A stretch of DNA of 46,981 bases from Gemmatimonadota bacterium (GTDB lineage: Bacteria; Gemmatimonadota; Gemmatimonadetes; Palauibacterales; Palauibacteraceae), in assembly GCA_022825725.1 (NCBI GenBank), contig JAJDWE010000023.1:1-46981 (forward strand), given 5' to 3'. Under the pieces are notes generated by a model. It was not told the origin of the DNA. It did not search any database and saw only the letters and a program-made list of their open reading frames with translations. Position 1 is the stretch's first letter, and every line of letters begins with the position of its first letter. Both the position numbers and the translations under genes were made by a program. This document shows, piece after piece, positions 39,257 through 41,201 of this stretch.

Positions 39257-40032
39257 TCGACCCCATCGCAGCGGGCACGATCGGGGCCGTCGCCGTCGAC
39301 GTGATCGCCCTCGCGGCGCCGCAGGTGGAGCCGGCGGGCGGGCTCCTCCCGGCGCTCTCCGACAACCCGTTTCTCGCGCTCGGCGCGCTCTTCGGGGCGG
39401 GCGTCCTCACGAGCACGAACCCGTGCATCTGGCCGATGATCCCGATCACGTTCTCGGTCATCTCGGGGACGGCGGGCGAGGGTCAGCCGCGAAAGCGCAC
39501 CATCGGCCTCACGCTCACGTACGCCTTGGGACTCTCGCTCCTCTACTCGCTGCTCGGCGTCATCGCCGGGCTCAGCGGCACCGTGCTCGGCTCGATCGGG
39601 GCGAGCTTCTGGGCGCTGTTCGCGACCGGGAACCTCCTGCTCTTCTTCTCTCTGTTCATGCTCGACGTCTTCCCGGTCCCGGTGCCGAAGCGGCTCCTGG
39701 CGTGGGCGAGCAGCCGCGGCGGCGGGTCCTACCGGGCCGTGTTTCTCCTCGGCGCGACCTCCGGCATCGTGGCCGCCCCGTGCGGCGCGCCCGCCTTCGC
39801 CGTGGTCCTCACCTGGGTCGTCGCCGAACAGGCCGGGCTCATGGGGTTCGTCTACCTGTTCACCTTCTCGATCGGCATGACCGCCGTGCTCATCGCCGTC
39901 GGACTCTTCTCCGGGACGCTCGCCGTGCTGCCGAAGTCGGGGATGTGGATGATCTGGATGAAACGGGCCGCAGCCGTCATCATGATCGGGATGGCGCAGT
40001 TCTACCTCATCCGGGCGGGATACTTCATGTGA
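39253..40032 (+). CDS. CcdA/DsbD-like thiol-redox membrane protein
   Basis: A 259-residue integral membrane protein with about six to seven membrane segments, matching the DsbD transmembrane domain/CcdA family. Two conserved intramembrane cysteines are visible in STNPCIWPM and VAAPCGAPAF, the pair that carries electrons from cytoplasmic thioredoxin across the membrane. The GTG start at 39253 overlaps the upstream stop as GTGA, and its stop overlaps the start of the thioredoxin-like gene as GTGA. The pair would supply reducing power to exported cysteine- or, if the finding below holds, selenocysteine-dependent enzymes. Confidence 0.9.
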   Translation: MIDPIAAGTIGAVAVDVIALAAPQVEPAGGLLPALSDNPFLALGALFGAGVLTSTNPCIWPMIPITFSVISGTAGEGQPRKRTIGLTLTYALGLSLLYSLLGVIAGLSGTVLGSIGASFWALFATGNLLLFFSLFMLDVFPVPVPKRLLAWASSRGGGSYRAVFLLGATSGIVAAPCGAPAFAVVLTWVVAEQAGLMGFVYLFTFSIGMTAVLIAVGLFSGTLAVLPKSGMWMIWMKRAAAVIMIGMAQFYLIRAGYFM

Positions 40033-40601
40033 ACGCGAAACCGAGACACGTCGCCACGTTCGCGGCGCGCGCGATGTTCGCCGCGCTGGCCGCGGTCGCC
40101 GGGGCTGGCCTCCTGTCGGCGGGTCCGCTCCACGCGCAGGCGGGCGCGGGGCAAGTGAGCCTCGCCACAGGGACGCAGGGGCCGAACGCCTCTCTGCAGG
40201 ATCTGGACGGCAACGAGATCCAACTCCTCGACTTCGCCGCCGGCAAGCCCACGCTCATCGAGTTCTGGGCCGCGTGGTGCGAACAGTGCGAGGGGCTGCA
40301 GCCCGAGATCGACCGGGTGCAGGCGGACTTCGGCGACCGGGTCAACGTCGTCGCGGTCGCCGTGGCCGTGGCCCAGTCGCTACGCCGCGTGCGACGTCAC
40401 GCGGAGGCGCATGGGGCGGAGTACCCCTACCTGTGGGATGCGGATGGCGCAGCGGTGCGCGCCTACTCGGCGACCACGACATCGATCGTCGTGATCCTCG
40501 ACGCGGAAGGAAAGGTGGCCTACACCGGCGTCGGCCCCGACCAGGATCTCGTCGGGGCCGTCACCGGAATCCTCTCCGATCAACAAGCCGGAGGGGACTA
40601 G
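40029..40601 (+). CDS. Exported TlpA/ResA-like thioredoxin
   Basis: A 190-residue exported protein with a signal peptide (about residues 1-38, ending PLHAQ) and a thioredoxin fold. The redox motif is WAAWCEQCEG (Cys84 and Cys87). It belongs to the TlpA/ResA group, which passes electrons to periplasmic targets. The conserved cis-proline region is atypical: ATTTSIVV, with no Pro before the strand, which may alter specificity. The GTG start at 40029 couples it to the CcdA-like gene. It converges, with only 3 nt between, on the peroxiredoxin-like gene. Confidence 0.9.
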   Translation: MNAKPRHVATFAARAMFAALAAVAGAGLLSAGPLHAQAGAGQVSLATGTQGPNASLQDLDGNEIQLLDFAAGKPTLIEFWAAWCEQCEGLQPEIDRVQADFGDRVNVVAVAVAVAQSLRRVRRHAEAHGAEYPYLWDADGAAVRAYSATTTSIVVILDAEGKVAYTGVGPDQDLVGAVTGILSDQQAGGD

Positions 40602-40604
40602 CTC

Positions 40605-41201
40605 CTACGGGTCGGCGGGCTCGGGCGTCACCTCGTCGATGATGGCGGCGAGTTCGTCGTAGGCGGCGGGATCCACCTGATTGAAGCTCGGAATCACGCC
40701 CGCGATGCGGCCGTCCGGGCCCACGACGATCACGGCGCGGCTGTCCACCGCGTTGCTGTCTCTCAACCCTCCGCCGAAGGCGACGTACGTCCCCCCGTCA
40801 TTGTCCGCGTCGCTGCCGAACAGGAAGGGGAAGTCCTCGTCCTTCAGCCATGACGCGAGTTCGTCGACCGGGTCGTTCGAGATGCCGACGAGAACCACGT
40901 TGCGGCCCTCGTTGAAAACACTTGCGTACTGATCACGGTACGCTCTCATCTGAACCGTTCAGCCACGCGTCCTGACTCTGAAGAAGAAGGCGAGGACGAC
41001 GGTCTCTCCCCGGTAGTCGCTGAGGCGGATCGGGTCCTCGAGCGCCCCGTACCGCGTCGCGCCCGGGAGCGCGAAGTCGGGCGCCATCTCGCCCACGGCG
41101 AGCAGTTGCGAGTCCTGCGCGCTCACCGGGGCCGCGCCTCCGATGGCGAGCGTTCCGGCCAGGCCCAGCGTGAGGGCGGCGGCCAGGACAAGTCTCCGCA
41201 T
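40605..41201 (-). CDS. Secreted peroxiredoxin-like selenoprotein (in-frame UGA)
   Basis: The reading frame runs from ATG 41201 (good AAAGGA upstream) to 40605, 198 residues, interrupted by a single TGA at codon 81 (40961-40959). Before it are a signal peptide (residues 1-28, ending VSAQD) and the peroxiredoxin N-terminus GEMAPDFALPGATRYG with VVLAFFFRVRTRG. After it the frame continues TVQMRAYRDQYASVF, VVLVGISNDPVDELASWL, VVGPDGRIAGVIPSF and a normal C-terminus. The TGA thus takes the place of the peroxidatic Cys in the T-x-G-C-T motif of AhpC/TSA (BCP-like) proteins. The most economical reading is selenocysteine. No other Cys is present, so a separate resolving thiol, perhaps the neighbouring thioredoxin, would be needed. 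The alternative is a TGC/TGT-to-TGA nonsense mutation that happened at exactly this residue. A SECIS-like stem-loop follows. A start at 40949 would give a fragment lacking the first half of the fold. Confidence 0.8.
40924..40943 (-). promoter_or_regulatory. SECIS-like stem-loop downstream of the UGA
   Basis: On the minus strand GCGTAC (40943-40938) and GTACGC (40929-40924) form a perfect 6-bp stem around an 8-nt loop CGTGATCA. The stem starts 15 nt after the UGA and the loop 21 nt after it. As I recall the bacterial SECIS consensus, it has an apical loop about 16-37 nt downstream of UGA and a G in the first two loop positions; both hold here. No structure prediction was run, and a 6-bp palindrome can occur by chance. 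Confidence 0.55.

Follow-up and report, generated by a model that had tools for sequence, protein, structure and literature searches.

What is encoded by a small gene that standard translation breaks in two at a single TGA, at the very place where its family carries the reactive cysteine? The window considered here, that is, the whole analysed stretch of 46,981 nucleotides from contig JAJDWE010000023.1 of a Gemmatimonadota assembly, contains on its minus strand a frame of 198 codons (40605..41201, ATG to TAG) with exactly one in-frame TGA, codon 81 (40959..40961). Translation with table 11 yields two open reading frames, 41201-40959 (80 residues) and 40949-40605 (114 residues), precisely those which a preliminary description of this DNA had joined into one frame and had expected gene callers to report as separate fragments; both statements hold. 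The residues around codon 81 read FFFRVRTRG-UGA-TVQM. This TGA is, judging from the comparisons set out below, almost certainly a selenocysteine (Sec) codon at the reactive site. We moreover consider it very likely that the gene as a whole encodes an exported single-selenocysteine peroxiredoxin, in which UGA 81 is decoded as Sec at the peroxidatic position, and which may be reduced by a TlpA-like redoxin.

The assignment to the peroxiredoxins is founded on domain and fold. With Cys written for UGA, the Pfam domain AhpC-TSA covers residues 36-167, and thus runs across the UGA, with 69.6 bits (cut-off 26). An AlphaFold2 model computed from 27 homologues, likewise with Cys in place of Sec, has a mean pLDDT of 86.7; its first row in Foldseek is Bcp4 of Sulfolobus, while VIA-align, which re-examines the Foldseek matches, ranks AhpE of Mycobacterium tuberculosis at the top (Z 22.8, r.m.s.d. 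1.6-1.8 over 150-152 residues). Sequence comparison was made with 102 Sec and 55 Cys proteins, obtained from 191 matches by merging duplicates and removing L100, which lacks the site, and L199, which has Asp there. Thr at position -3 relative to the catalytic residue occurs in 100 of the 102 Sec proteins, and the window protein has Thr78, Sec81 and Arg155, the last (codon 155, 40737..40739, minus strand) being invariant in the alignment of 27 homologues and presumably the catalytic Arg of peroxiredoxins. Hence the AhpC/TSA domain and fold, the Thr at -3, the catalytic residue and the Arg that mark the peroxiredoxin superfamily are all found. A resolving Cys as in 2-Cys peroxiredoxins is absent: the window protein has no Cys at all, and a further Cys within the domain is seen in none of the 102 Sec proteins and in one of the 55 Cys proteins. 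The family therefore comprises one-Sec or one-Cys enzymes that need a reductant from outside. At its N-terminus (residues 1-28, 41118..41201, minus strand) a hydrophobic stretch ending in VSA, with a possible cleavage site VSA/QDS, looks by eye like a signal peptide, and it is this stretch that the earlier claim of export depends on; the export itself, and likewise the peroxidase activity, are proposed here from sequence features.

The peroxiredoxin motif is PxxxTxxC. The preliminary description had recognised a TxGCT active site, and TRGUT indeed fits TxxC; the full motif is incomplete, since codon 74 (40980..40982, minus strand), at position -7, encodes Phe. It is thus by domain and fold, and not by the full motif, that the protein is placed among the peroxiredoxins, and peroxidase activity cannot be assumed because the motif Pro is missing. 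The substitution recurs in most Sec forms of the family. Position -7 is Phe in 87, Tyr in 7 and Pro in 8 of the 102 Sec proteins, and Pro in all 55 Cys proteins. In the largest set, 117 Sec proteins divide into 91 with Phe, 15 with Pro, 10 with Tyr and one with Val, while 89 of 90 Cys proteins have Pro, the distant relative L260 has Arg, and none has Phe or Tyr; these sets are non-random samples for which Cys rows were fetched deliberately. Another set of 175 proteins (the Sec protein L234, with Val, being left out) contains Sec forms with Phe (90), Pro (15) and Tyr (10), and 60 Cys forms that all have Pro. On a quick tree of 112 rows and 145 columns, from which the active-site and hairpin columns were left out and in which 45 of 109 inner branches are open, at least nine Sec/Cys changes and seven Pro/aromatic changes are counted. 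An independent-pairs test of Sec against position -7 gave averages of 2.4 pairs changing the same way, 0.0 the opposite way and 0.6 without difference, and with just three pairs on starred branches the sign test was not significant. Consequently, the co-switch of Sec and position -7 is a strong pattern in these sequences and an unproven rule. It is tempting to speculate that selenium frees the active site from the motif Pro, such that Cys pairs with Pro and Sec usually with Phe or Tyr in repeated joint switches, and we would give this proposal an even chance; that a selenolate tolerates the loss of the motif Pro appears to us equally open to acceptance and to doubt.

At seven Gemmatimonadota loci (L162-L168) Cys and Sec forms of the peroxiredoxin stand in tandem on one strand, with the Cys gene first in six of the seven, and all seven tandem Sec forms retain Pro at -7. 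In L162 the Sec gene seemingly starts at a GTG that overlaps the TGA stop of the Cys gene, and has a signal-like start of its own.

Since an outside reductant is needed, the neighbourhood deserves attention. On the plus strand, converging with the Sec gene, lie a gene for a CcdA/DsbD-type transmembrane protein (PF02683; 39253..40032) and one for a TlpA/ResA-like redoxin with the motif WCEQC and a hydrophobic N-terminus (40029..40601), the latter ending 3 nt from the Sec gene as had been stated; by domain match and position they are candidates for electron conduit and reductant, respectively. Among the 80 named loci, which are the best 80 of 209, TlpA matches occur in 61 and CcdA matches in 60, mostly immediately downstream and converging, whereas the remaining neighbours vary; in L080 both genes follow on the same strand as the Sec gene, and the more distant Sec loci L232 and L234 likewise carry CcdA and TlpA. 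By contrast, neither stands beside any of 30 Cys genes examined, and several Sec genes also lack the pair. Counting only genes with 3 kb of flank on both sides, and related loci separately, both partners are present at 45 of 76 Sec genes and at 0 of 29 Cys genes, and CcdA/TlpA is hence rejected as a universal partner; the count ignores matches that overlap the gene, so that L063, L068, L079 and L090 are scored as lacking TlpA. In these four loci the domain of the Sec gene is overlapped at its 3' end by a TlpA match on the opposite strand, and the convergent genes thus seem to overlap. Near four loci without CcdA/TlpA no redox partner was found by eye among the ORFs. The earlier link to the CcdA/TlpA pair is therefore partly supported, since the pair is conserved in part of the family: a reductant role is plausible for the lineage of the window, where gene order suggests it, and does not extend to the family in general. 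As to whether the TlpA-like redoxin is indeed the reductant, the gene neighbourhoods leave us evenly divided.

The same observations bear on the most serious alternative, namely that the protein is a selenoprotein and yet not mainly a peroxidase, acting instead, with TlpA as its partner, in thiol-disulfide exchange or in another redox reaction that depends on the selenol. The aromatic residue at -7 in 94 of 102 Sec proteins and the TlpA/CcdA pair adjoining the gene in much of the family would agree with such a function. However, Thr at -3, the invariant Arg155 and the AhpE-like fold are features of peroxiredoxins, and a UxxC or CxxU motif is nowhere present, since none of the 102 Sec domains contains another Cys; we consequently regard this alternative as improbable and retain the single-selenocysteine peroxiredoxin as the preferred reading.

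The TGA itself was compared among relatives. The best 80 of 209 loci were taken as named loci, 79 of which span the UGA site; the codon is TGA in 78 of these 79 and encodes Cys in one (L095). The closest named whole-gene relatives, from Candidatus Palauibacter and other Gemmatimonadota MAGs, are 91-98% identical. Against seven close homologues, all of which retain the TGA, omega ranges from 0 to 0.19 behind the TGA (3' side) and from 0.09 to 0.28 ahead of it (5' side), the 3' value being the lower one in all seven pairs. Conservation on both sides of the TGA, as described earlier from the single sequence, is therefore evident from the selection on the 3' side as well as from the domain that spans it, and a search among close relatives for a TGA limited to one decaying strain finds the reverse, that is, a shared TGA followed by sequence under purifying selection. 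An in-frame UGA, coding sequence conserved on both sides of it and homologues with Cys at the same column together make up the recognised signature of a selenoprotein, and all are seen here. A nonsense mutation or a sequencing error in a decaying gene, as the two ORFs of a standard call might suggest, is hardly conceivable as the origin of the TGA given the identical codon in 78 of 79 loci, the low omega downstream and the Sec machinery of the host described below.

Two further observations were made among the homologues. Three loci titled Gammaproteobacteria (L041-L043) carry a gene 76% identical to that of the window and similar to that of L048, which is titled BD2-11 clade, a group that we take to belong to the Gemmatimonadota; they are probably mislabelled bins. 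Four distant homologues without the TGA (L199, L262, L263 and L269), all from selB-positive genomes, carry Asp, Ala or Gly in place of the catalytic residue; they represent perhaps a paralogue devoid of peroxidase chemistry.

If UGA 81 is read as Sec, the machinery for it should be encoded by the same organism. The host assembly (84 contigs totalling 3.49 Mb, with a completeness of 97.7%, close to Candidatus Palauibacter of the Gemmatimonadota) indeed contains the full set for which a search had been proposed: tRNA-Sec (79.4 bits, cut-off 47; ARAGORN anticodon tca), SelA (502 bits), SelB (368 bits) and SelD (372 bits). This selD gene (L019) has a single in-frame TGA of its own, which lies near its start and is followed by a stem-loop (z -2.15), which points to SelD itself being probably a selenoprotein.

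Across the phylum, with 395 genomes sampled, a homologue (threshold E 1e-20) is found in 323 and SelB (threshold E 1e-60) in 283; for this tally, genomes absent from the first homologue listing and all those lacking SelB were searched again. Of the homologue-bearing genomes, 252 have SelB and 71 lack it; the TGA form occurs in 228 of the former and 17 of the latter, and thus in 245 of the 395 sampled Gemmatimonadota genomes. The 24 selB-positive genomes for which no TGA form is listed have Cys (18), Ala, Asp or Gly (4), or fragments that lack the site (2). Among the 17 SelB-less genomes with the TGA form, 14 have a tRNA-Sec of at least 65 bits and 13 have SelA; each of the 17 possesses at least one of both, so that the missing SelB is probably an assembly gap. 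In the other 54 SelB-less genomes neither SelA nor a tRNA-Sec of at least 65 bits was found (0 of 54 each), and Cys occupies the column in every one of them. Stricter filters were applied in this tRNA search, since it covered more than 40 genomes; the best score among the 54 Cys genomes is 50.4 bits, and although some scores exceed the family cut-off of 47, we take these matches to be other tRNAs because the 14 clear ones start at 65.3 bits. Wherever the TGA form is seen, at least one of SelB, tRNA-Sec and SelA therefore accompanies it, while genomes lacking all three have the Cys form. These data also speak to the proposal that a standard amino acid is inserted at the UGA, through a change of the code or leaky read-through, for which the continuation of the frame past the UGA is the sole argument: with the TGA form confined to genomes with Sec machinery, with Cys and not Trp in the others, and with 39 of 117 distinct Sec-form domains followed by TGA as their first stop, so that TGA also terminates the gene in some relatives, we can safely set it aside.

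Insertion of Sec at codon 81 would finally call for an in-gene signal. Following the UGA, at 40924..40943 (minus strand), the transcript can form the hairpin GCGUAC(CGUGAUCA)GUACGC, whose loop lies 21 nt after the UGA. The published model of the bacterial SECIS element (bSECIS; section 5 of PMC13188914) specifies (i) a stem of 4-16 bp, (ii) a loop of 3-9 nt with G among its first two bases, (iii) a distance of 16-37 nt from the UGA, and (iv) an energy of at most -7.5 kcal/mol; the hairpin of the window agrees with all of these, having 6 bp, the 8-nt loop CGUGAUCA, the distance of 21 nt and a centroid energy of -8.5 kcal/mol. The six-pair stem forms in 87 of 87 distinct Sec alleles, letter-identical in 86, and in 5 of 55 Cys alleles; 83 of the 87 Sec alleles share the loop CGUGAUCA. 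Its near invariance, with all six pairs identical in 86 of the 87 Sec alleles, is also why the stem gives no covariation signal. Among 123 distinct Sec alleles, the share of the commonest codon lies between 0.96 and 1.00 at each of the six codons of the hairpin, whereas at 36 other conserved codons the mean share is 0.63 and the highest 0.95; consistently, the hairpin of Sec alleles uses CGT and GAT at places where Cys alleles favour CGC and GAC. Taken by itself, the 54-nt stretch of the window folds no better than shuffled sequences (z 0.21); the comparative test did support the hairpin. Neither the hairpin, nor the lack of a second Cys, nor the aromatic residue at -7 figures in the preliminary description.

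We thus envisage the following course of events. With the help of SelB, tRNA-Sec and the hairpin that follows the codon, ribosomes would decode UGA 81 as Sec; once mature, the protein would adopt the peroxiredoxin fold with Thr78, Sec81 and Arg155 at catalytic places, and the selenolate of Sec81 would attack the peroxide. Having no second Cys, the selenoprotein would have to be reduced by another molecule, which in the lineage of the window may most likely be a periplasmic TlpA-like redoxin recharged through CcdA.

Apart from the enzyme itself, the family may be of wider use. What Sec adds, and what the motif Pro does, can be tested directly by comparing Sec with Cys forms, which adjoin one another in some genomes, and if the co-switch is true, a family with a nearly letter-frozen in-gene SECIS element would provide natural experiments on Sec versus Cys. 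SelA and SelB are reported from most sponge-symbiont bins and not from most of their reference relatives (PMC5649159), and a Sec-peroxiredoxin offers a target for this machinery. Among the open-licence PMC papers listed by our searches no report of the gene of the window, or of a Sec-peroxiredoxin from Gemmatimonadota, was found, and 'Gemmatimonad' has no occurrence in the reviews PMC13188914 and PMC9312934.

How, then, does the protein relate to known systems? None of the NCBIfam models reaches its own cut-off for it, and genes of this type are therefore probably annotated as two fragments. PrxQ/BCP proteins resemble it in that Bcp4 heads the Foldseek matches and the NCBIfam model PRK09437 matches 27 of 27 aligned homologues, but the window protein scores 51.1 bits with this model (cut-off 140), and its domain is without a resolving Cys. 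Of the three marks of a 1-Cys peroxiredoxin of the AhpE type, the third being common descent with AhpE, the window protein shows two, the fold and the lack of a resolving Cys, and two of the matched PDB titles name AhpE of M. tuberculosis a 1-Cys peroxiredoxin; however, identity in these matches is 24-25%, AhpE has Cys and not Sec, and the match leaves out residues 1-30 of the window protein. The adjacent converging pair has the domains of a TlpA/ResA and CcdA/DsbD relay, whereas a peroxiredoxin as its client is suggested by gene order only. Sec-peroxiredoxins of the TxxU class are themselves established (PMC2398784, PMC9312934 and PMC13188914): 253 Prx TxxU sequences are given for the Global Ocean Sampling set (PMC2398784), and a 2026 review lists Prx TxxU and calls PxxxTxxU highly conserved (PMC13188914). 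With PrxU the window protein has in common the AhpC/TSA domain and the TxxU site, in which Sec takes the peroxidatic position. It differs in that it scores 37.4 bits with the NCBIfam model peroxi_PrxU (NF040737; cut-off 270), that its family mostly has Phe or Tyr at -7, and that it appears, by eye, to be exported. The protein is of the known TxxU kind; new here are the lack of a second Cys and, in most Sec forms, the aromatic residue at -7.
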